A stretch of DNA of 64,000 nucleotides from Verrucomicrobia bacterium ADurb.Bin006 (GTDB lineage Bacteria; Verrucomicrobiota; Verrucomicrobiia; Limisphaerales; J093): the NCBI GenBank assembly GCA_002071485.1, contig MWFF01000065.1, forward strand, positions 1-64,000. Direction: 5' to 3'. Position numbers and translations under genes: made by a program. Shown here piece after piece: positions 4,272 to 42,687 of this stretch. Numbering within the stretch: position 1 is the first letter of the stretch; every line of letters starts with the position of its first letter. The notes under the pieces are model-generated. The model made no database searches. It saw nothing but the letters and a program-made list of their open reading frames with translations, and was not told the DNA's origin.

Positions 4272-5339
4272 CTAAAGGACAACCAGGTTGTCGCGGTGCA
4301 CCAGCACGGTGCGGGGTAGGTCCTTGGCGCGGACCTGGTCGGCGGCGAATTCGGGGATGCCACGGGCGAATTCGGTGCCTTCCACGTCGCAGATGCGCAC
4401 CACGTCGCCGGCGCGGAACTCGCCTTCGCAGCGGATCACCCCCGGCAACAGGAGGCTCTTGTTGGCCTCGCGCACGGCCTGGCGGGCACCATCGTCCACG
4501 ACCAGAGTTCCCCGCGGGTGATGGAAGAAGGCGATCCAGCGTTTGCGGCCCTGAAGCTTGCGTTCGCGCGGAACGAACATCGTGCCTTCGGCCTCGCCAT
4601 CGAGAATTCTGGCCAGCACGCCGCGGCGTCGACCGCTGGCGATTACCAGCGGAATGCCCGAACGCGTCACAATGCGTCCGGCATCGATCTTGGTGGTCAT
4701 TCCGCCCACGGCGGTCGCGCTCAGGGTCCCGTGCCCGAGGCGGACGATCGCGTCGTCGATCTTCTCGACTGTGGGCAGGAGGCGGGCGTCAGGTTGTCCG
4801 TAGTTCTGGATCAGGCCGTCGACGGACGTGAGGATGACGAGGAGATCGGCCGGGAGCAGGCAAGCGACCAGTGCCGAGAGCCGATCGTTGTCGCCGAACT
4901 TGAGTTCCGTGACCGAGACGGCGTCGTTTTCGTTGATAATCGGGATGACGCCGCGTTGCAGGAGGGTGACGAGCGTGTTTCGTGCGTTGAGGTGACGGTC
5001 GTGGTGTTCGAGGTCTTCGTGGGTGAGCAGCACCTGGGCCACGTGCAGCCCGTGACGGGCGAATAGCTTTTCGTAGCTGGCCATCAGGCGCGACTGGCCC
5101 ACCGCGGCGCAGGCCTGCAATTCGGCCAGATTGGTGGGGCGCTTGTCGAAGCTCAGCACCCCCATGCCCGCGCCGACCGCCCCCGAACTGACCAATACCA
5201 ACTCGCGGCCGGCTTCCCGCTGCTCGGCCACCTGGGCCGCCAGTTGCTCCATTTGCCCGAGGTCGGGCTGCTTGCGGCTGTCCGTCAGGATGCCGGTTCC
5301 CAGCTTCACGACCACGCGACTAATGTTGTCTTGAGGCAT
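4272..5339 (-). CDS. proB: Glutamate 5-kinase
   Basis: This 355-aa protein phosphorylates L-glutamate to gamma-glutamyl phosphate, the first step of proline synthesis. An amino-acid-kinase domain covers about residues 1-260 (VVVKLGTGIL at the start, LVSSGAVGAG, the NENDAVS loop and FGDNDRLSALVA, then GTGGM-like AVGGMTTKIDA). A C-terminal PUA domain follows from about residue 275 to the end. Length matches the ProB-PUA type. The ATG at 5339 is chosen from the family N-terminus. The usual partner proA is not adjacent; mazG follows instead. Confidence 0.96.
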   Translation of the reverse strand: MPQDNISRVVVKLGTGILTDSRKQPDLGQMEQLAAQVAEQREAGRELVLVSSGAVGAGMGVLSFDKRPTNLAELQACAAVGQSRLMASYEKLFARHGLHVAQVLLTHEDLEHHDRHLNARNTLVTLLQRGVIPIINENDAVSVTELKFGDNDRLSALVACLLPADLLVILTSVDGLIQNYGQPDARLLPTVEKIDDAIVRLGHGTLSATAVGGMTTKIDAGRIVTRSGIPLVIASGRRRGVLARILDGEAEGTMFVPRERKLQGRKRWIAFFHHPRGTLVVDDGARQAVREANKSLLLPGVIRCEGEFRAGDVVRICDVEGTEFARGIPEFAADQVRAKDLPRTVLVHRDNLVVL

Positions 5340-5603: not shown

Positions 5604-8531
5604 TCACAAGTCCACCCGAAGCCGATAGAACTTTCCCGAGGCATCCGGCGATTCGAGGGTATACGCCGAGGTCCCGTCACTCAGGATCGGCCCGGGCAGA
5701 TTGAACCAAGGGCTCGATTGCGCAAGATCAGCCGCGACTTCGAGGGTTGCCCGGCTTGTTCTGGCCGGCCAGGACACCTTGACCGATTGTGGGGCCGAGC
5801 GCTCGATCATGACCCGCGCAATGGCGGGATAGAGGAGGTTGACCGTGGTCGAGCCTGAGACCTGCAGAATCAGACGCCCGTCGACTGCCAGGAATTGATG
5901 CGGGCTGCCCAGGCCGACCGGTTGTCCGTTGATCTCGAGGGCGGGGGCGCGTGTCAGGCCGTTGATCAGGACCGAGCAGGATCGCGCGGACCATGTGTTG
6001 ACCGTGAACCGGACCCCGTCGGTCCTCTCCTCGATCGCCGTGATCTCGCCGGGGGCGTGCACCAGGAGACCGTGGCGGTTGAACGCAGCAAACGTGTAGA
6101 GCGGCTGTTCATCGAGCAGACGGACGGCGGATGCCAGCACGGTGGCGGGGTTGATCGCGGGGCCGTTGCGGGTCTGGGAACGCAGGTTGTAGCTGTCGGG
6201 CAGGAGACCGCGAAAGTCGGGGTCGTCGATCGGATAGCAATGCTGAATGCCGGCCGCGGCGATGCCGTCGGCGATTCGCTTCCAGGGGCCGCCCGGATCG
6301 TGGCGGGCGAAACGGTAGAGGGCGTCGGCATAAACCAGGCCGCACCATTGCACGGGCAGACCAATCCAGTTGGGCGCAACCCAGGCCGTCGCTCCGAGCA
6401 CGGGGATCGTGCCATAGACGCCGACAGGGTTGGACGTGGGCGGAGTGAGATAGACAAAGGGCACGCCTGTCCAGGCCCAATAGCGCGCCTGTTCGAGGAA
6501 GTCCGGATCGCGGGTGAGTTCGAACCCGATCGTGTAGACGCGGACGAGATGGGCCGAGGCCAGGATGTCGGGCGTGTGCAGAGGTATCTCCCAGGTCTGT
6601 GCCCCGCGCGGAACTGTGTTGCGGAACTTGTCGAGGGCACGCAGGTGGCGCAGGCCCAGGGTGCGCAGGACGGGATTGCCGGAGAAGAGGGCGTCGGCGA
6701 GCAGTGACTCGAGGACGGCGGCGGTAAGGCCGTTGGCGTCGGGCGCCCAGTGAGTCCGGCCATAGTCCAATCCGTTGGCCGGTTTCTGGTAATGGACCGA
6801 ACCATCGGGCTGAAACCGGCCAAGCAGGGCGTTTCCGTGCGCCTGGGCCGCCACAGCGTTGTCGGAGACGGCGCCATAGATCAGGGCCGGGAGCGGGTAG
6901 GTGACATGGCCGACTTGGGCGCTGTTGTAGTTGGCGGGCGACACGAGCGCCAGGGCGGCTTGCGCACCGGTCCGAAGGCGCGCGGCCAGTTCCGTATCGC
7001 CCACTTTCAGAGCAAGCCAATCCATATAAAGGGCGGCATCGGCGCTTGGTCCTGACGAGAAGCCCGGAGCGGCATGGCGATAGCGGTTGCCATCGCGGAT
7101 TTGCGAGTCAAGCCAGCCCCGTGCGGCGAGAGCGAAGAAGCTGCCCGTGCTCATCCCGATCTCGGGCACGGGCGGGAGCCCGAAGAGGCGGACGTACTGC
7201 TGCACGGCGGGGACAACGGCCCCCCCGCGCCCGCCGAGGAGAAGAGCGCTGACCGTGACACTGCGGTTGGCGGCGAGCGTGACCGTGTCGTAAGGGAGCA
7301 GGCTGCTTTCCTCGCGGTTGACACCGTCGGAGCCAGGGAAGAGCAGGCCCATGAGATGCGATTGGCTGCCGAAGAAGCGGTCGGGTGAGTCGAAAACCGC
7401 GCAGGTGTTGGGTTGGTCTCGGTTCCATGCCAATCCTACGTAGCGTTCCTGCGCGGCGAGAGCCATGAGAGGAAACGTCAGTTTCAGGATGTCGGGCACC
7501 TGGCGATCCGAGGCGGGCGGATTGAGGTCCGCCGTCGAACTGCTCGGTTCGTTGTCGAGGTACTCGACACCCGCCAGAAGGGCCTGAATCTTGTTTGTGC
7601 CGAAATCGCCCAGACCGGCCAGCAGTGTGAAGACAGGCAGGTAAAGCACCGCCCGATCCTGGTCCACACTGACGCGGGTCGAGGCGCCCAGCGCTCCGGC
7701 CTGGTTCAGCGTGAACGCCTGCTCGATCTGCCATCTGGCGCCGTCCGGATCCGTGCAGACAGCTCTTGCGCGAATCGCGCCGCCAATCGTCCTGTCGGCC
7801 AGCAGGCTCAGCGGTTGGTGCTCGATCGTGACGACAGCGTCGGCGCCATATCCGTACGGGAACCAGCGTACCTGGTTGTTGTGCACGTAGCCGATCAAGG
7901 CCCGATTGTTGCCGCATGCCAGCCGTTGGCCGGCAACGTGGACCTCGAATTCACCCAAACCACCTCGGCCATGAATCAGTTTGAGGTCGCCCGATTCCAG
8001 CGTCACGGCATCGGGACCGAGGGTGGGTGGGGCAGGCGAAGGCCAGATCGGCGGGTGGAATGCCACGCGCGGCTCGAAGCGGAGTCGGTTGAGCACGCAT
8101 GTGCCGCTGGTGCCGGGCGGGTCGAAACGCAGGCGGTAACTCGGCCCCAGGGCGGGCAGCCGGACTTTCGCGTCGTGCCACTGGCCGCCTCCCGGAACGG
8201 CGAACCGGATCGAGTTCTCTTCAGTCGCATGGGTGTTGAAGTAGAAAATCTGCGCCATGCCGCCCTGATCGGACTTGAGGCGGATGTGAAGCCAGAGCGG
8301 GGTATCAGGGGGGTAATCGCGGACCGGACCGCTCGAATAGGGATCGCTTCCCGTAATGGACAGCACCATTCCCTCGGCGCTGCCTGTGATGGGCCCGAGG
8401 TCGTGAGTTGGCTGCCATCCCTGCCGGTCGGCGGCCTTCGTGAAGTCCCACGACGGCAGCGAGGCGGGATGGGCGCTCGACGTCGACGCGAGGACAAGTG
8501 AGGCAATGAGGGATTTGAGGGCTTGGCGCAT
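5604..8531 (-). CDS. Large secreted protein, CBM-like N-terminus, helical toroid-like core and C-terminal beta module
   Basis: About 975 aa with an N-terminal signal peptide (hydrophobic run within the first 25 residues, ending near HPAS). Residues 30-160 look like a carbohydrate-binding beta-sandwich. Residues 170-450 are again beta-rich. From about 465 to 800 there are repeated Trp/Tyr-rich helical hairpins (for example ALYMDWLALKVGDTELAARL), recalling the alpha/alpha toroid of polysaccharide lyases and heparinase-like enzymes. The last 70 residues contain a WPARTSRATLEVAADL segment and a KFYRLRV end, a C-terminal module frequent in secreted verrucomicrobial proteins. I cannot assign a GH or PL family or a catalytic residue. 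The setting (sugar permease and other secreted enzymes downstream) suggests polysaccharide breakdown. Confidence 0.8.
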   Translation of the reverse strand: MRQALKSLIASLVLASTSSAHPASLPSWDFTKAADRQGWQPTHDLGPITGSAEGMVLSITGSDPYSSGPVRDYPPDTPLWLHIRLKSDQGGMAQIFYFNTHATEENSIRFAVPGGGQWHDAKVRLPALGPSYRLRFDPPGTSGTCVLNRLRFEPRVAFHPPIWPSPAPPTLGPDAVTLESGDLKLIHGRGGLGEFEVHVAGQRLACGNNRALIGYVHNNQVRWFPYGYGADAVVTIEHQPLSLLADRTIGGAIRARAVCTDPDGARWQIEQAFTLNQAGALGASTRVSVDQDRAVLYLPVFTLLAGLGDFGTNKIQALLAGVEYLDNEPSSSTADLNPPASDRQVPDILKLTFPLMALAAQERYVGLAWNRDQPNTCAVFDSPDRFFGSQSHLMGLLFPGSDGVNREESSLLPYDTVTLAANRSVTVSALLLGGRGGAVVPAVQQYVRLFGLPPVPEIGMSTGSFFALAARGWLDSQIRDGNRYRHAAPGFSSGPSADAALYMDWLALKVGDTELAARLRTGAQAALALVSPANYNSAQVGHVTYPLPALIYGAVSDNAVAAQAHGNALLGRFQPDGSVHYQKPANGLDYGRTHWAPDANGLTAAVLESLLADALFSGNPVLRTLGLRHLRALDKFRNTVPRGAQTWEIPLHTPDILASAHLVRVYTIGFELTRDPDFLEQARYWAWTGVPFVYLTPPTSNPVGVYGTIPVLGATAWVAPNWIGLPVQWCGLVYADALYRFARHDPGGPWKRIADGIAAAGIQHCYPIDDPDFRGLLPDSYNLRSQTRNGPAINPATVLASAVRLLDEQPLYTFAAFNRHGLLVHAPGEITAIEERTDGVRFTVNTWSARSCSVLINGLTRAPALEINGQPVGLGSPHQFLAVDGRLILQVSGSTTVNLLYPAIARVMIERSAPQSVKVSWPARTSRATLEVAADLAQSSPWFNLPGPILSDGTSAYTLESPDASGKFYRLRVDL

Positions 8532-31939: not shown

Positions 31940-32278
31940 ATGGGCTTCGAGAAAATCCTTACGCTCACCGCGGAGACGTTTGACGGTGAGATTGCCGGGT
32001 CGCCTGTCCCCATGCTTGTGAATTTCTGGGCCGATTGGTGCGCCCCGTGCCACAGCATCGCGTCCCTGCTCGACGATTTGGCCATCGAGTACGATGGCCA
32101 GGTCCGCTTCGGCAGGGTCAACGTCGACATCGAGCAGCGGTTGGCCGCCGAATACCGCATCAGCGGCGTGCCGACGCTCCTTCTTTTCAAGGACGGTCAG
32201 GTGCAGGACGTCATCGTGGGGCTGAAGAACCGGCAGGATCTCGTCGCCAGCCTCGAACAGGCGCTCACTCCCGCATGA
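31940..32278 (+). CDS. trxA: Thioredoxin
   Basis: This 112-aa cytosolic thioredoxin has the active site WCAPC (C34, C37) with FWADWCAPCHS around it, and the cis-Pro loop SGVPTLLLFKDG. The residue after the second Cys is His, not the usual Lys or Arg. Length is normal for TrxA. An AAAGGGG lies about 10 nt before the ATG. The next gene (GspF-like) follows after 24 nt, so the two may be co-transcribed. The gene symbol is by family only, as several thioredoxins may exist in this genome. Confidence 0.92.
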   Translation: MGFEKILTLTAETFDGEIAGSPVPMLVNFWADWCAPCHSIASLLDDLAIEYDGQVRFGRVNVDIEQRLAAEYRISGVPTLLLFKDGQVQDVIVGLKNRQDLVASLEQALTPA

Positions 32279-32302
32279 GCCCCTGGCGCAAGCCGTGCCG
32301 TC

Positions 32303-33301
32303 ATGCCTCTGATTGTCACGCCGGGTCGGCTCGCGCGGCTGGGGGAATTCTACTACCAGCTCAAGTCGATGCAGGCGGCCGGCTTGAGCCTCATCCAGGC
32401 GCTCGATCAGCTTCGGCTCGCCTCGCCCAGCCGATCGCTGGTCCGCCCAATCGAGCGTCTGCTCGACGGATTGAACCACGGGCTCTCTTTCACCGAGGCG
32501 CTCAAGAGCCTCGGACGCTGGCTGCCGTCATTTGACCTCGCACTGCTCGCCGCGGGCGAACAGAGCGGACGCCTCGATTCGGTCTGCGGGCTCCTGGCCC
32601 AGTACTACCAGAACCGCGCCGCACTGGCGCGCCAGGTGATCTCCTCCCTCATCTATCCGGCGGTGATCGTCCATGCCGCCATCTTGCTCGGTCCATTCCC
32701 GCAGTTCTTTCTGAGCGGCGATCTTGTCACCTATGCCCGGCAGACGTTGGGCACCCTCCTGCCGATCTACGGCGTGGTCCTGCTTGGAGTCATGGCCTGC
32801 CAGAGCCGGCGTGGACTATTCTGGCGCTCCGCTGTCGAGCGCCTGCTTCAGCTCATCCCCGTGCTCGGCCGGGCGCGGCGAAGCCTGGCCCTGGCGCGCC
32901 TCACGGTGGCGCTCGATGCCCTGCTCGAAGCCGGGGTGTCCGCGGTCGAAGCCTGGCCTCTGGCGGCCGCGGCCAGCGGGTCGCCGGCGCTCGGGCGCGA
33001 TGTGGCGGGTTGGAAGACGCGCCTGCTGGGCGGCGACGCGCCGGGCGACCTGCTGCCGCGGGCGCGCTCTTTCCCGAGTTTCTTCTCGAATCTTTACCGG
33101 ACGGGGGAGATCAGCGGCACGCTCGATGACGCCCTCAAACGCCTGCGCGTCTACTACGAGGACGACGCCCAGCGCAAGATGAAGGCTCTGGCCTTCTGGG
33201 TCCCTTTCGCCATCTACATCGTGATTCTGATCCTGCTCGCCATGACAGTCGTCGGGTTTTGGGTCGGCCACTACAACGCAATCCTCGATACGGACTACTA
33301 G
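32303..33301 (+). CDS. Type II secretion GspF/PilC-like inner-membrane protein, short form
   Basis: This 332-aa protein contains two T2SSF domains: the first about residues 10-135 (FTEALKSLGRWLPSFDLALLAAGEQSG), the second about 185-300 (DLLPRARSFPSFFSNLYRTG, then SGTLDDALKRLRVYYEDDA). There are TM segments after each (about 137-160 and 310-330). GspF/PilC proteins form the platform beneath a secretin or pilus machine. The usual N-terminal 70 residues are missing and there is no GspE-like ATPase or pilin gene nearby, so it is an orphan platform protein. It is followed after 22 nt by the aminotransferase-fold gene. Confidence 0.88.
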   Translation: MPLIVTPGRLARLGEFYYQLKSMQAAGLSLIQALDQLRLASPSRSLVRPIERLLDGLNHGLSFTEALKSLGRWLPSFDLALLAAGEQSGRLDSVCGLLAQYYQNRAALARQVISSLIYPAVIVHAAILLGPFPQFFLSGDLVTYARQTLGTLLPIYGVVLLGVMACQSRRGLFWRSAVERLLQLIPVLGRARRSLALARLTVALDALLEAGVSAVEAWPLAAAASGSPALGRDVAGWKTRLLGGDAPGDLLPRARSFPSFFSNLYRTGEISGTLDDALKRLRVYYEDDAQRKMKALAFWVPFAIYIVILILLAMTVVGFWVGHYNAILDTDY

Positions 33302-35953: not shown

Positions 35954-36121
35954 TGGCCAACGGGCTCGGACCGTGTGATCGGCGGCGGCAGGAACTGGTA
36001 CGGCCAGCACCACAGGCTCGTCTGCACCTGGGTCTGCCGGTCAGCCAACCGCTTCCGCTACGACCCGGACAACAGGAACAACAACCTCGGGTTCGGGGTC
36101 CTGCTTGCCCGTGGTCAGTGA
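35954..36121 (+). pseudogene. FGE-sulfatase (C-type lectin fold) C-terminal fragment resembling a DGR variable repeat
   Basis: A 55-codon open stretch reads DRVIGGGRNW at its start and CRSANRFRYDPDNRNNNLGF near its end. This is the C-terminal sequence of formylglycine-generating-enzyme-like domains, which normally read RVxRGGSW...CRSAxR...GFRV. Upstream of about 35954 there is no matching sequence, so the gene body is missing. Variable codons (TTC, TAC, GAC, CAC, GGC, CTC, GTC) surround intact AAC codons, as expected when adenines of an AAC-rich template are changed by a diversity-generating retroelement. No reverse transcriptase or template repeat is in the window. The stop overlaps the Gfo/Idh gene end by 7 bp. 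Confidence 0.6.
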
Positions 36122-37386
36122 ACCAGGCGATCGAGCGGGAATTCCCAGGCCTCAGCCTGGCGCATCATGTCGGTCCAGGTGACCTCGCTCTTGGCGTAGG
36201 CGGCGGTGCGTCCGAGGATGGTTGTCAGGTTGCTGCGCACGCTGGGGGCGACGGTCGGGTTGCTGAAGTCGCCCTGGGCGATGCCGGCGTGGAAGGCCTT
36301 GACGTTGTTCTCGACGCCTTCGGCGTAGATGCGGCTGGTCTGGCCGCCGTTGTACTTGTCGTCGCAATGCACCACCACCGGGCCGCCGTAATGGGTGTCG
36401 ATCGTGCCTTCCGTCCCGTAGATGCGGCACTGGATGTCGTCCCAGTAGCGTCCAACCTGTTTCGAGGAGAAACTGATCAGCACGTCGTTGGGGAACCAGA
36501 ACACCACCGCGAAGTGATCCCAGCAGTCGCCGGCGAACGGGCGCGCCCGGCCGCCGGTGCCGAAGGCGCGGACCGGGGCCGCGTCGAGAATCCAGGTGCA
36601 AACGTCGAGGGAATGGATGTTCTGCTCGGTGATGACGTCGCCGCTGAGCACGCGGTCGACGGCCCAGGCGCGGACGCGCGCCTCGGGATTGCCGATGTTC
36701 TTCCTGTATTCATCGTCCATGCCCTGGAAATAGAGGCTGCATTGGTAGGTGGACTCGCCGCTGACGAGTTTGCCGATGGCGCCCGCATGCACGCGTTTCA
36801 CGGCCTCGATGTAGGCCGGCTGGGCACGTGTCTGGAAATCGACCAGGAACGCCCGCCGGTTGGCGGTGGCCAGCCGTCCGCTCTCGGCGATGGACAGGCA
36901 ACCGGGCACGTCCACGGCCACCGGTTTGGCCAGGTAAACGTGCTTGCCCGCCGCGACGGCGTCGGCGGCCTGCATCGGGTGGAAGAACGGCGGCGATTGG
37001 ATGGCGACGGCGTCGACCTTGTCCAGCATGCGTCGGTACCCATAGAGGCCGCTGAAGCGCATCGCCTCCGGGATGCCGTGCTTGGCCCCCGCCGCGTCGG
37101 CCTTGTCCTGGAAGTAGTCGGCGCAGGCGACCACGTCGAATCCGCCATGCTTCTTGAAATAATCCAGAATCCACGTGCCCCGCCCTCCGCAGCCGATCAA
37201 GCCGAGTCTGATTTTCGCGTCGGCGTCCGCCCCGCGCACCAACTGCGGGCTGAGCACGCCGAATCCCAGCGCGGTTGCGCCGGCACCGGCGCCGGCCAAG
37301 AACTGACGGCGGTTCAATGGGGTGGATGATGGCGACGAGGTGGATGGGTGAGCAGACACGGCGTTCTCCGGTTTGAATGGTCTCAT
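36115..37386 (-). CDS. Tat-exported Gfo/Idh/MocA family oxidoreductase
   Basis: This 423-aa protein has a twin-arginine signal (NRRQFLAGAGAGATALGFG, about residues 25-43) and is expected in the periplasm. The Rossmann domain has the dinucleotide loop GLIGCGGRG and the family motif CADYFQDKADAA; the EKP-type motif of the family appears as AKPVAVDV. The C-terminal half has the Gfo/Idh/MocA sheet domain with CRIYGTEGTID and an IGRTAAYA-type end. Members oxidise or reduce sugars, inositols or amino sugars with a bound NAD(P); in this phylum many Tat-exported homologues are linked with glycan breakdown. The substrate is unknown. The start at 37386 is chosen because it precedes the Tat signal. Confidence 0.92.
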   Translation of the reverse strand: MRPFKPENAVSAHPSTSSPSSTPLNRRQFLAGAGAGATALGFGVLSPQLVRGADADAKIRLGLIGCGGRGTWILDYFKKHGGFDVVACADYFQDKADAAGAKHGIPEAMRFSGLYGYRRMLDKVDAVAIQSPPFFHPMQAADAVAAGKHVYLAKPVAVDVPGCLSIAESGRLATANRRAFLVDFQTRAQPAYIEAVKRVHAGAIGKLVSGESTYQCSLYFQGMDDEYRKNIGNPEARVRAWAVDRVLSGDVITEQNIHSLDVCTWILDAAPVRAFGTGGRARPFAGDCWDHFAVVFWFPNDVLISFSSKQVGRYWDDIQCRIYGTEGTIDTHYGGPVVVHCDDKYNGGQTSRIYAEGVENNVKAFHAGIAQGDFSNPTVAPSVRSNLTTILGRTAAYAKSEVTWTDMMRQAEAWEFPLDRLVH

Positions 37387-37475
37387 GACAGTGCGCGGGC
37401 GGCGCGCATGGCGCGTCCATGCGATCCGCCGTTCCGACGAGCCGAACAATGGCCGCCCCCGGGGCGTGGCGCAAG

Positions 37476-37515
37476 CCGCATGTGCGACAGCCGCATGTGC
37501 GATCCGCATGTGCGA
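37476..37515. repeat. Three copies of CCGCATGTGCGA upstream of the Gfo/Idh gene
   Basis: The 12-mer CCGCATGTGCGA occurs at 37476-37487, 37491-37502 and 37504-37515. The array is 90-130 bp upstream of the oxidoreductase start and could be an operator or a slippage-derived satellite. Confidence 0.6.
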
Positions 37516-37572
37516 TCCGCGGCGTGCGTGTTCGGGGGCGTCTCACACCATTGATGCGAGCGCATTGTCTTT

Positions 37573-37830
37573 TCACACGCCGAGGTTGTGCCGTGTCTCA
37601 TCCAATTCAACCTGCAGGCCGGGGTGCAAATCCTCCAGCAGAAACTTCCACAGACGGGCTGAAGCCAGCAAGTCCGGGTCGCGCAGACGCAGAATGTCGG
37701 CGACCCGTCGGGCCACGGTTTCATCGCGACATAGTTGATACAGGCGCTTCCAATCTTCCGTGCCCCCGCGCTGGATGATGTTCAACCAATCCAGCGGCGT
37801 CGCCGTCTTGGTGCTTCGCGAGGGATTCAT
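37573..37830 (-). CDS. Small partner of the nucleotidyltransferase (85 aa)
   Basis: This 85-aa soluble protein starts MNPSRSTKTATPLDWLNIIQ; residues 12-75 are predicted helical with a LCRDETVARRVADILRLRD segment and the ending WKFLLEDLHPGLQVELDE. Its ATG overlaps the stop of the nucleotidyltransferase gene (ATGA at 37827-37830), a mark of coupled translation. I do not recognise a named family. In a two-gene unit with an AbiEii-like enzyme it could be the antitoxin or a specificity partner. Confidence 0.75.
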   Translation of the reverse strand: MNPSRSTKTATPLDWLNIIQRGGTEDWKRLYQLCRDETVARRVADILRLRDPDLLASARLWKFLLEDLHPGLQVELDETRHNLGV

Positions 37831-38603
37831 GCGGGTCCTCCTTGGGGCCAGTCCGGCGGCAGCGCCGCCGGCAACGCGCCGTCGAGTTCCTGCTTGAGCA
37901 AGGCCCGCCCCAGTTTGCGGCACTCGCCAGCCACGAACGGCCAGTCCGTGAACGGCGCTCGGAGACCCTTGTACTCCGCCAACGCAATTGCCGCAGCGTC
38001 CACCGGCTCGCCTTCGCACGCCTCAGCGAAGGCACTGAGCCAGGTTTGTGGCGTGCGCAGGCCGTAAACGAGGTTCAACACGCGCAGCGCGCCGACCGCG
38101 GCTTGATCGCCGAGGCGATTTGCCAGCGCGGCGGTATCCACGTAATCCCGCAAGGCGCGACGCTCGGTCAAAAGGAAGGCTTTGATACGGAGCATCTCGG
38201 CTGGAGTGGGAACGAGCAGCCCGGCGACGCGCGTGGTGTGGAGCGGCACCGAGCGGCGCAGTTGACGGACGCCTAGTTCCACGCTGCCGCGCTCGCCGAG
38301 GATCAGGACGGGTGGGTTGATGCGGTTGGTGCGCCAGCCTTCCCAAGCCGTCAGGTTTGCCTTCACTTCCTCGAATCGCGCGTTCAGTTGAGGTGTGACC
38401 ACATCCACATCCAGCGAGAAGCGATGGCCGCAATGCACCGCTGCTGCCGTGCCGCCCACTGCGATCGGCGACAAATCAGACAGCCGCGCTTGCAAGGCGC
38501 ATCCCTCGGCCAAGACTCGTTGGAAGTCCGGAACGTCCACGCCCGGGATCGTAACGCTTGGGCAAAAGGGCTGCACGGAAAAAGCCGGGCCGGCAGTTCT
38601 CAT
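37827..38603 (-). CDS. AbiEii-like nucleotidyltransferase
   Basis: About 258 aa from the ATG at 38603; a GTG at 38540 (starting VDVPDFQRVLAEGC) may be the true start because the first residues come from repeated spacer sequence. The nucleotidyltransferase signature is IAVGGTAAAVHCGHRFSLDVD, the GG-x-A ... HR-x-S-x-D-x-D form of MNT/AbiEii enzymes, with two catalytic Asp. The remaining domain is helical. Such enzymes add nucleotides to tRNA or protein targets, and many act as toxins in toxin-antitoxin or abortive-infection systems. The 85-aa gene follows with an ATGA overlap. Confidence 0.82.
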   Translation of the reverse strand: MRTAGPAFSVQPFCPSVTIPGVDVPDFQRVLAEGCALQARLSDLSPIAVGGTAAAVHCGHRFSLDVDVVTPQLNARFEEVKANLTAWEGWRTNRINPPVLILGERGSVELGVRQLRRSVPLHTTRVAGLLVPTPAEMLRIKAFLLTERRALRDYVDTAALANRLGDQAAVGALRVLNLVYGLRTPQTWLSAFAEACEGEPVDAAAIALAEYKGLRAPFTDWPFVAGECRKLGRALLKQELDGALPAALPPDWPQGGPA

Positions 38604-38700
38604 TTTGGCCAGGGCCTCCGGCGGAAACCGGCTGAAGCCGGGACACCCAATCACGTCCGACGCTTCGGCGTGCTGTTCGGTGTACAGCCTTCAGGCGACT
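38604..38700. repeat. Repeated-type spacer with hairpin CCGGCTGAAGCCGG
   Basis: The region between the nucleotidyltransferase (minus) and the Gly/Tyr/Trp-rich gene (plus) carries a perfect 5-bp stem hairpin at 38628-38641 (CCGGC-TGAA-GCCGG) and a GTACAGCCTTCAGGCGACTC segment. From memory this kind of sequence recurs between genes in Pedosphaera-type genomes; only one copy is in this window. Confidence 0.4.
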
Positions 38701-38803
38701 CGTGGCCAACCCTAGAATCGCTGAAGCCAGCCCGTCTCTGCTTGGCAGGGCGGGCAAAGGGGCGTATGGTGTCGGCATTGTGAAAGGCAGAGATCTCGCG
38801 TTC

Positions 38804-41524
38804 ATGGGCCGGGCGTGCTTAGCCCTGGCGGTTCTGGGATTGAGTGCCTCGCTGGTCGGGCAGGAGACCTCCGGGCAATGGCCGAGGCAGGTCGAGGCGC
38901 CCCAAGGACAGTGCATGATCTTCCAGCCGCAGCCGGCGGCGATCGAAGGCGATCGGCTGAGCGCGCGCGCGGCGCTGGCCGTGACGCTAGCAGGGTCGAC
39001 CAACGTTGTGTTCGGCATCGCCCAAATCGAGGCGCGCGCCGTGCAGGACCCGAGCGGGAGGGAGACCGTCATTTCCGAGGTCACGCTGAACCAACTCAAC
39101 TTTGCCCCAGCCAATGCGGCTGCGATGGCCGGCCTGGCTGACACACTCGGACCCGAACTGTCCAAGGTTACCTGGACCATGCCCTCGGACACTCTGCGGG
39201 CTGGTCTGGACGCGGTCGAATGGCAGCGTGCAGCCGCGCTGGGTATTGCGGCCAACGCGCCCCGCATTCTGTACAGTCAAAAGCCGGCGACGCTGATCGT
39301 GCTCGATGGTCCTCCGCAACTGCGCCAGATCCCAGACTCGAGGATGCAGCGTGTGATCAACACGCCATACGCGATGCTGTTCGATCCTACGTTGCAGCGC
39401 TATTGGCTGCGCGGCTCGTTCGAGTGGTTTTCTGCCTCGGATTGGCGGGGCGAATGGACTCCGGCCGCTCAGCCGCCGGCCGAGGTCGCGGCGGCGTTGC
39501 CGGCCGAGGTCGCCGGCGAGGCTCCCGCGGTCGGGCGCCTCACCGCGGTGTCCCCGCGAATTCTAGTATCGACTGAGCCGGCCGAACTGATCGTGACGCA
39601 TGGCGAGGCCACGTATGCGCCGGTTGCCGGGAGTGACCTGTTGTACGTGAGCAACAGCGAGCAACTGCTGTTTTTCACTCTCGATACCAAGGAGTACTAC
39701 GTTGCCTTGTCGGGCCGATGGTATCGGAGTCCCGCCCTGACTGGTCCGTGGGATGCGGTGGCGGCGGATGCCTTGCCGCCGGCCTTTGCCAAGATCACGC
39801 CGGGATCGCCCAAGTCCGAGGCGCTGACCTATGTGGCGGGAACGGTGGAAGCGCAGGATGCCGTGGTGCAGGCCGCCATTCCGCAGATCACCGCCGTCGA
39901 ACGCGGTCCGGCGGACGTCGAGGTCGAGTATGAGGGCACGGCGCAATTCCAGCCGGTGGAAGGCACCTCTGTGCAGTACGCTACCAATACCGTCGATGCA
40001 GTCTTCCTGGTCGGAGGGAACTACTACATGTGCCGCGACGCCGTCTGGTACACCGGCCCCAGTCCGGACGGGCCGTGGTCCGTGGCCACGTTCGTGCCTT
40101 CGGAGATCCAGTCGTTGCCCCCGAGCAATCCGCACTACAATGTCAAGTACGTGTACGTGTACGGGGTGACGCCCCAGGAGGTCTATGTCGGGTACGAGCC
40201 CGGCTATTCAGGCTGTTACGTCTACGGGCCGACCGTGGTCTACGGCACCGGATGGTGGTATCCCGGGTACTACGGGCCGTCGTACTATTGGGCGTATCCG
40301 GCGACGTTCGGATTTGGCTTCTGCTACAATTCGTGGTCCGGATGGAGCGTCGGTTTCGGCTGGGGTTACGGTTGGCTCAGTTGCGGGTACCGGTGGGGAT
40401 GGAGCGGGTGTTATCCGTGGGGGTGGTGGGGGCCGAGAGGCGCCTATTGGGCATGCGCGCCCCGGTATCCGTGCTATGACAGGTACCACCACGGGCGCGA
40501 TGGCTACGGTGGCCACGGACGTGGCGGTCCACCAGTCCGGAGCGGAGATCACGCCGGGCTGCGGCCGGGTTTGAGGCCCGATCGGCCATCGGGTGGGATT
40601 CGACCAGACGTTCCAGGTCCGAACGACCGGGTGAACAATGCGCAGCGTCGCAGTCTTCCGCCTTACGCGCGCACGGTCAGGGCGCCCTATCAGCAACCGA
40701 CTGCGCTCAGGCCGGCGGAGGGTGCTGCCTCGAGATCGAGTGTCGGAGGCGGTCCGAGCCGGCTGGCGGAGACCACTCGATCGCAAGTGCCGATCAGCCC
40801 GGGCTCAATGTCCCAGCAGTCGCCTCAGGCTCGTCCGGGAGACGCCGGTTCGCCGAACCGCTCGATTGTTGGCCGCGCACCCGACGCGGTTACGAATCCC
40901 GTCGCGCGGAGGGAGGGAATTCAACCGGAACGTTCGTTTGCCGGTTCGAGCGCAAGTGCGCCCGCAAGAACAACGCCGGCACGTAACCAGACTGTTGTCA
41001 GCCGGCAACCGGCGGCCGTCGCGGGAGGGGTCCCGGGAAGCTCTTCCGCCGCGCCGAATCGCGTGACAGCCGAGAGGGCGAGTCGTCCGGTTGCCGCTGC
41101 GCCCGTCTCGCGTCCGAACACAATCGGTTCGGGACCTTCCGTGCGCTCGACCTTGCCCGCGGCTCGCAGTTACTCGCCTCCGGTACGGTCGATGCCGTCG
41201 CAACCGCCGGTCTCGATGCGCGGCGGATCGTGGCCCGGCTCCAGGCCAACCTATGCGCCATCGGCGCCTCAGACCGTTACCCGAACTCCGTCGATGGGGG
41301 GTGGGTCAGTCTACCGCTCGGCGCCGTCGCGCGCTCCCGCACCCTCCTACGGCACGATCAGTCGCGCTCCCTCGATGCGGGCGCCTGTTGCGGCGCCGTC
41401 GGCACCGACTCGAGGAAGTTACTCGCCGCGATCGAGTGCGCCGATGGGGTCGGCGCCGACTCGTTCCTCGGGGGGGGTCTACGGAGGGTCGATGGGCCGG
41501 GGCAGTTCGTCGTGGGGCCGCTGA
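38804..41524 (+). CDS. Large secreted protein, carbohydrate-binding V/XII-like region and Gly/Tyr/Trp-rich then Ser/Arg/Pro-rich tail
   Basis: This 906-aa protein has a signal peptide from the ATG at 38804 (MGRACLALAVLGLSASLVGQ). Residues 20-440 hold three related units with the pattern of a short beta stretch followed by a WYxGP- or WYRSPxLTGPW-like motif. The next 120 residues are extremely rich in Gly, Tyr and Trp (WWGPRGAYW, GWGYGWLSCGYRWG). The last 300 residues are low complexity with repeated SxAP, PSxRSxx and RxPS patterns. It resembles the carbohydrate-binding family V/XII annotation found in several phyla. No enzyme motif is visible. A structural, adhesive or matrix role at the cell surface is plausible. 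Confidence 0.8.
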   Translation: MGRACLALAVLGLSASLVGQETSGQWPRQVEAPQGQCMIFQPQPAAIEGDRLSARAALAVTLAGSTNVVFGIAQIEARAVQDPSGRETVISEVTLNQLNFAPANAAAMAGLADTLGPELSKVTWTMPSDTLRAGLDAVEWQRAAALGIAANAPRILYSQKPATLIVLDGPPQLRQIPDSRMQRVINTPYAMLFDPTLQRYWLRGSFEWFSASDWRGEWTPAAQPPAEVAAALPAEVAGEAPAVGRLTAVSPRILVSTEPAELIVTHGEATYAPVAGSDLLYVSNSEQLLFFTLDTKEYYVALSGRWYRSPALTGPWDAVAADALPPAFAKITPGSPKSEALTYVAGTVEAQDAVVQAAIPQITAVERGPADVEVEYEGTAQFQPVEGTSVQYATNTVDAVFLVGGNYYMCRDAVWYTGPSPDGPWSVATFVPSEIQSLPPSNPHYNVKYVYVYGVTPQEVYVGYEPGYSGCYVYGPTVVYGTGWWYPGYYGPSYYWAYPATFGFGFCYNSWSGWSVGFGWGYGWLSCGYRWGWSGCYPWGWWGPRGAYWACAPRYPCYDRYHHGRDGYGGHGRGGPPVRSGDHAGLRPGLRPDRPSGGIRPDVPGPNDRVNNAQRRSLPPYARTVRAPYQQPTALRPAEGAASRSSVGGGPSRLAETTRSQVPISPGSMSQQSPQARPGDAGSPNRSIVGRAPDAVTNPVARREGIQPERSFAGSSASAPARTTPARNQTVVSRQPAAVAGGVPGSSSAAPNRVTAERASRPVAAAPVSRPNTIGSGPSVRSTLPAARSYSPPVRSMPSQPPVSMRGGSWPGSRPTYAPSAPQTVTRTPSMGGGSVYRSAPSRAPAPSYGTISRAPSMRAPVAAPSAPTRGSYSPRSSAPMGSAPTRSSGGVYGGSMGRGSSSWGR

Positions 41525-42280: not shown

Positions 42281-42687
42281 TTGGAATTGACCGAACCGAA
42301 CCTGAGCCGCACCGGGCAATGGCTTAACGTGAGCTTCAGCGTGTGGTTAAACCGACGACTCGGGCGTTGCGGGCACTTGTTCCAGGGCCGGTTCGGGTCT
42401 GAGGTGGCGGACCACGATTTCGTGGAGGCTGGAGGAAGTCATCGCGAACGTGGAGAAGGTGAAAGGGCGGATCTGGAGGGAGATTCGGGATCAGTCCGGG
42501 GATGACGGGCGGGACCTGGCATTGCCCATCGGGCGGCGGGCTTACGGGTTGAGGCCGGGGAACTGGCGGCGGCGGCGGCGGGGATGATCGATTACATGGC
42601 GGTGTCGGCCGCCCTGCGGCTGCATGAGCGGCGGCTGCAGCGGAGCACCTCCGGGCGGGAACGGTTGAAACAAGCATCCGAAATGTA
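42281..42687 (+). pseudogene. RAYT (REP-associated tyrosine transposase) remnant
   Basis: The first frame reads NLSRTGQWLNVSFSVWLNRR and continues with RCGHLFQGRFGSEV, the middle of a Y1 transposase of the TnpA_REP type. Two frame shifts later, about 42555-42687 gives ELAAAAAGMIDYMAVSAALR and an ending of SEM with a stop, the usual C-terminal repeat-type helix of these proteins. The N-terminal catalytic half with the HUH motif is absent. The gene is dead. Its presence fits the REP-like elements at 87-110 and 12601-12712. Confidence 0.75.

Follow-up and report, generated by a model that had tools for sequence, protein, structure and literature searches.

Nucleotidyltransferase (NTase) toxins of the DUF1814 kind, which include AbiEii and MenT, are widespread, and they raise the question of how antitoxins that are not related to one another can all keep them in check. 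The antitoxin types named in published work are AbiEi (COG5340), COG4861 and MenA1 (PMC10435456, PMC3985639). In the type IV AbiE system, the gene for the antitoxin AbiEi, which carries an N-terminal winged HTH, comes first and the gene for the toxin AbiEii (COG2253) second; the two-gene unit is mobile, its two products do not bind each other, and the toxin carries motifs I to IV as defined in PMC3985639. In MenAT1 of M. tuberculosis, the NTase toxin MenT1 (Rv0078A) is encoded beside a short antitoxin without a DNA-binding domain, MenA1 (Rv0078B), and menA1 lay upstream of menT in 15 of 21 surveyed loci (PMC10435456). Residues T39, D41, K137 and D152 of MenT1 have been studied experimentally, and the phosphoacceptor is T39 in MenT1 and S78 in MenT3. 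HEPN/MNT modules (type VII) also join an NTase to a small helical protein; in these, the NTase-domain protein is the antitoxin and modifies the small helical toxin (PMC7641770).

Here, we describe a pair of minus-strand genes in a 64,000-nucleotide stretch of the genome of Verrucomicrobia bacterium ADurb.Bin006 (the window), which likely forms a mobile toxin-antitoxin cassette of the DUF1814 (AbiEii/MenT) type, with the NTase as the toxin and an 85-aa partner as the antitoxin. An earlier note, made from the sequence alone, had reported both genes and an ATGA overlap between them, and re-reading the frames from the sequence gave the same picture. The NTase frame runs from an ATG at 38603 to a stop at 37827 (258 aa), the partner occupies 37830-37573, and the start and stop codons overlap at 37827-37830, an arrangement that suggests translational coupling. 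A Shine-Dalgarno-like AAGGAGG (37837-37843) stands 6 nt before the partner ATG. The closest relative is a cassette from a Pedosphaera sp. of Lake Baikal (locus L003), whose enzyme is 75% and partner 87% identical to those of the window. Nucleotide changes between the two cassettes fall mostly at third codon positions, and the NTase and partner genes have dN/dS values of approximately 0.12 and 0.08, respectively, indicating that both are real genes under purifying selection. The NTase start given in the earlier note needs correction: translation probably begins at the GTG at 38540 (residue V22), giving a 237-aa protein (37827-38540), because homology to L003 begins at residue 22, residues 5-16 are of low confidence in the structure model, and the upstream ATG falls inside an interspersed repeat.

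The surroundings of the pair had been described as containing a satellite and transposase relics. A small tandem repeat is indeed present at 37473-37520; the only trace of a transposase was one suggestive short open reading frame at 42281, which has no Pfam match. An Rfam scan of the window region gave no match. The neighboring GFO/IDH/MocA oxidoreductase gene (36115-37509) belongs to a large paralogous expansion, with 64 matches in its own genome and 31-100 in other genomes of the family. On the other side, a 917-aa frame (38771-41524) without a Pfam match is conserved within the genus, with 89% identity over the first 300 aa in genome G001.

The enzyme is AbiEii-like, as first proposed. It matches the AbiEii family of Pfam (PF08843) with an E-value of 1.1e-6 and 29.2 bits, above the cut-off of 22.5, and it contains all four motifs of AbiEii. 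In an alignment of 43 loci, motifs I and II form GGT...HRxSxDxD (G50-D67; 38403-38456, minus strand), and motifs III and IV comprise K141...R148 and RDYVD (R152-D156; 38136-38183, minus strand). Nearly invariant across these loci are GG 50-51, R61, S63, D65, D67, K141, R148 and R152-D-x-x-D156. Residues G50, G51, S63 and D67 are kept in 41 of the 43, the other two lacking the whole region, and K141, R148 and D156 are invariant in every locus that retains theirs. The AbiEii model of PADLOC scarcely responds to the enzyme (E=0.039), searches of solved-structure sequences with the single sequence and with a profile gave no match, and neither did a PHROGs search. The predicted fold (pLDDT 90) has as its best solved matches in Foldseek JHP933 (8e-6) and MenT1 (1.5e-5), the latter both alone and within the MenAT1 complex (8an5/8an4). 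T39, D41, K137 and D152 of MenT1 correspond to S63, D65, K141 and D156 of the window enzyme, with the same spacing within each pair (2 and 15 residues), so that S63 (38415-38417), two residues before the catalytic Asp, occupies the phosphoacceptor position. The two systems thus share the toxin fold and active-site residues, as well as adjacent genes and a short partner without a DNA-binding domain. They differ in that the window enzyme is only about 16% identical to MenT1, its partner is encoded downstream, and that partner has no detectable homology to MenA1, since neither its profile nor its model matched the MenAT1 entry.

The partner was also predicted not to be AbiEi, and this holds: it is 85 aa long, has no N-terminal winged HTH and matched no family in Pfam, NCBIfam or PADLOC, so that its family is without a name in the libraries searched. 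With AbiEi missing and the enzyme gene first, the window pair is not AbiE proper, even though it shares with AbiE the enzyme motifs, the two-gene unit and the mobility. The partner model contains four helices (pLDDT 76), and the alignment, locus census and model together portray it as the stand-alone form of an all-helical family. Its only near-invariant residues are R5, R21, G22, W27 and L30; these include a loop motif, RG...DW..L, in which G22, W27 and L30 are invariant across a wide alignment. A fold search of the model against solved structures gave no match below E=1, the profile found only unrelated chains among solved-structure sequences (E 0.077 or worse), and the best PHROGs match had E=0.33. 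No description of the family was found in the open-access literature searched, and the NetFlax paper (PMC10440598) does not mention these NTases. A second, broken copy of the partner, covering residues ~42-80 and lacking an enzyme, is present elsewhere in the same genome (L002 1516-1632; contig C121, ~32189-32323).

A small helical protein beside an NTase is also what a HEPN/MNT-like module would look like, in which case the partner would be the toxin and the NTase an antitoxin that modifies it. We regard this exchange of roles as very unlikely. The partner alignment shows no conserved R...H pair of the kind found in HEPN RNases, and we considered and rejected a HEPN toxin as its identity. Motifs III and IV of the enzyme are specific to DUF1814, and the MenT1 toxin is among the enzyme's best structural matches. 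The pattern of gene decay points the same way. The catalytic part of the enzyme has been lost and the partner kept in genomes G006 (L026), G013 (L049) and G110 (L053) and at locus L014, and the enzyme is absent beside a retained partner in G059 (L050); at L091, it is degenerate. Such losses would be dangerous if the enzyme were the antitoxin. Where both sides could be read, there was no intact enzyme without an adjacent partner or partner candidate. Repeated loss of the enzyme with retention of the partner fits the expectation for a toxin and its antitoxin and is suggestive rather than decisive: when six one-sided losses are weighted by gene length (237 versus 85 aa), the probability of such a pattern by chance is approximately 0.16, so the asymmetry counts as support and not as proof.

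The assignment of the enzyme as toxin and the partner as antitoxin draws further support from how regularly the two genes occur together. A same-strand partner gene adjoins the enzyme gene in 41 of 43 distinct (non-redundant) loci, upstream in 24 and downstream in 17; two small co-oriented genes that always occur side by side are a feature of toxin-antitoxin systems. The two exceptions are L007, whose start coincides with a contig edge, and L094, which has only a weak downstream partner candidate. Two analyses guarded against circularity. In the first, a profile based only on the close partner group was run on 388 genomes of the phylum, and five of its weak hits (L031, L035-L038) each lie directly upstream of an NTase. 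In the second, the partner profile was matched, at 1e-14 to 4e-21, by proteins that had not been used to build it, namely the neighbors of NTases on plasmids of Pseudarthrobacter, Pseudonocardia and P. putida. Four other weak partner hits (L030, L032, L033, L034) were discarded as lying inside long unrelated frames or having no NTase near. According to the earlier note, a partner family found mainly without the enzyme would speak against a functional pair. The opposite distribution was found: a search of 320 genomes of the order yielded 12 strong partner hits, 8 of them beside an intact NTase and 2 beside an NTase remnant, with 1 at a contig edge and 1 alone. The genes could conceivably be chance neighbors in an accessory region, a reading for which the small size of the partner leaves some room and beyond which nothing else in its favor was found. 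Pairing at 41 of 43 loci over several phyla and purifying selection on both genes led us to reject it, and we consider its probability negligible.

The order of the genes, with the enzyme first, had been presented as the unusual feature of the pair. The NTase does come first at the window locus, and 7 of the 17 enzyme-first loci have the same -3 spacing as its ATGA overlap; however, this order does not define the group, since at 24 of 41 loci the partner gene comes first. Restriction to one phylum likewise proved too narrow, as pairs were also found in Pseudomonadota, Actinomycetota, Myxococcota, Vulcanimicrobiota and possibly Deferribacterota. Verrucomicrobiota close to the window carry a stand-alone partner downstream of the enzyme, and more distant members of the phylum carry a stand-alone partner upstream. 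In Pseudomonadota, an XRE HTH is fused to the N-terminal side of the partner domain and the gene lies upstream of the enzyme; in Actinomycetota, the HTH is on the C-terminal side and the gene lies downstream. On the enzyme tree, which comes from a quick search and places L020 on a long branch, gene order requires at least three changes, two of them forced by well-supported branches. Gene order thus follows clades without being fixed, and enzyme-first is one of several arrangements. At one locus (L091 4824-5717), on contig IMGVR_UViG_2799113165_000002 of a viral collection, the partner is fused to the C-terminus of the enzyme in a single frame, and the enzyme half is degenerate, with motifs I and II gone. 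On a Deferribacter megaplasmid, a distant NTase pair (L094 1-512 and 1980-3219) is found close to a CRISPR locus with its cas6 gene, and on a Pseudarthrobacter plasmid, a J-domain protein gene directly precedes the NTase gene (L092 2183-2881).

Several observations indicate that the pair is mobile. In G001, a genome of the same genus, the two genes that border the window cassette (92-93% identical at the DNA level) directly adjoin each other with no cassette between them; in the window, the pair is accordingly carried by an insertion of approximately 1.2 kb (37529-38735, with approximate boundaries). One end of the insertion is formed by an interspersed repeat of ~131 bp with inverted ends (38592-38723), recognized from matches in its own genome, alignment and folding. 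It has 16 further matches in this genome, most of them 82-91% identical, with ends that read GCAGTTCTCATTTTGGCC...GGCCAAAATGAGAACCGC in other copies. It has no match in Rfam and is probably a small non-autonomous element. The direct repeats detected on either side of the window cassette were all short and resembled chance matches. The L003 cassette occupies a different locus, following an aminopeptidase gene. The 3' end of this gene recurs on the far side of the cassette as a direct repeat of 103 bp (92% identity; 4852-4954 and 5980-6082), as if the insertion had duplicated the end of the gene; a homologue of this aminopeptidase gene is present in the window genome, with no cassette there. Relatives of the pair occur on eight plasmid records, and presence in the order is patchy, at approximately 5% of genomes.

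This distribution bears on two other readings of the pair. One is that the NTase is a non-toxic, two-subunit enzyme that modifies RNA or protein in housekeeping or under stress, for which the partner serves as a specificity or stability subunit. Obligate pairing and the fused L091 would also fit this, and MenT2 had no detectable effect on growth in earlier work (PMC10435456). Patchy presence, the insertion and its empty site, plasmid copies and HTH-fused partners better fit a selfish or defensive module, and we think a two-subunit enzyme unlikely. The other reading is defense proper, in the form of abortive infection as in AbiE, with phage infection freeing the enzyme. The homology to AbiEii, the phage resistance conferred by AbiE (PMC3985639) and the scattered, mobile distribution speak for it. 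Against it, there are no defense-system neighbors at the window locus, PADLOC gave no system assignment for the pair, and tblastn of both proteins found no close homologue in a phage collection; a scan of viral contigs added one locus, L091. A role in defense is possible, on balance rather doubtful, and compatible with the toxin-antitoxin explanation instead of exclusive of it.

The nearest parallel to the window partner is DUF6922 (PF21956), a domain annotated as of unknown function, for which no paper was found in the open-access literature searched. In other Verrucomicrobiota, DUF6922 proteins, small or fused to an XRE HTH, adjoin AbiEii-type NTases, and they have a similar motif, xxG..(E)DW/V..L, after the first helix. 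Unlike the window partner, DUF6922 is encoded upstream wherever an NTase was found, and the linked NTases are remote, ~29% identical to the window enzyme in a partial alignment. A search for PF21956 among the window's relatives found none, and it was present in 20 of 97 genomes around G338. At 20 of 21 loci (L096-L116), a DUF6922 protein, often fused to an XRE HTH, precedes an AbiEii-type NTase or its remnant, and DUF6922 itself looks like an antitoxin. These pairs decay in a similar manner, with broken or truncated enzymes in L100, L101 and L106. Hmmscan found no match between the partner and DUF6922; alignment of the partner with the DUF6922 profile by hhalign gave a weak link (probability 36%, P=3.7e-4). 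This hints that the two may share a common origin.

The toxin-antitoxin role of the pair is thus well supported by indirect evidence. We infer that the enzyme would be toxic and that the partner would neutralize it, and phage defense would be a possible further function. By analogy with MenT1, MenT3 and MenT4, the NTase probably adds nucleotides to the 3' ends of tRNA, which would stop translation. The helical partner, as the putative antitoxin, would be translated with the help of a strong ribosome-binding site of its own and in coupling with the stop codon of the toxin, so that antitoxin would be made whenever toxin is made. The partner probably binds the toxin directly and might then either block the active site or induce phosphorylation of Ser63. 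In other clades, HTH-fused partners probably also repress their operon; since the window partner has no DNA-binding domain, its control is expected to be mainly post-translational, and transcriptional control by the partner is unlikely. We speculate further that the partner family represents undescribed, phylum-spanning antitoxins of DUF1814 tRNA nucleotidyltransferases, which together with DUF6922 would form one helical "RG-DW" superfamily, in which gene order was swapped and the HTH gained or lost several times, and whose bare 85-aa form would neutralize via Ser63 phosphorylation. This broader proposal is tentative, and the odds are somewhat against it in full.

Searches based on an antitoxin-first order or on AbiEi can miss systems of this type. 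The pair described here adds a further partner family, one that is unnamed in Pfam, NCBIfam and PADLOC, to those associated with DUF1814 enzymes, and its natural variants separate the putative neutralizing domain from the DNA-binding domain. This makes it testable whether phosphorylation of an active-site Ser/Thr is a general mode of control of these enzymes and whether a bare helical domain suffices to neutralize them.
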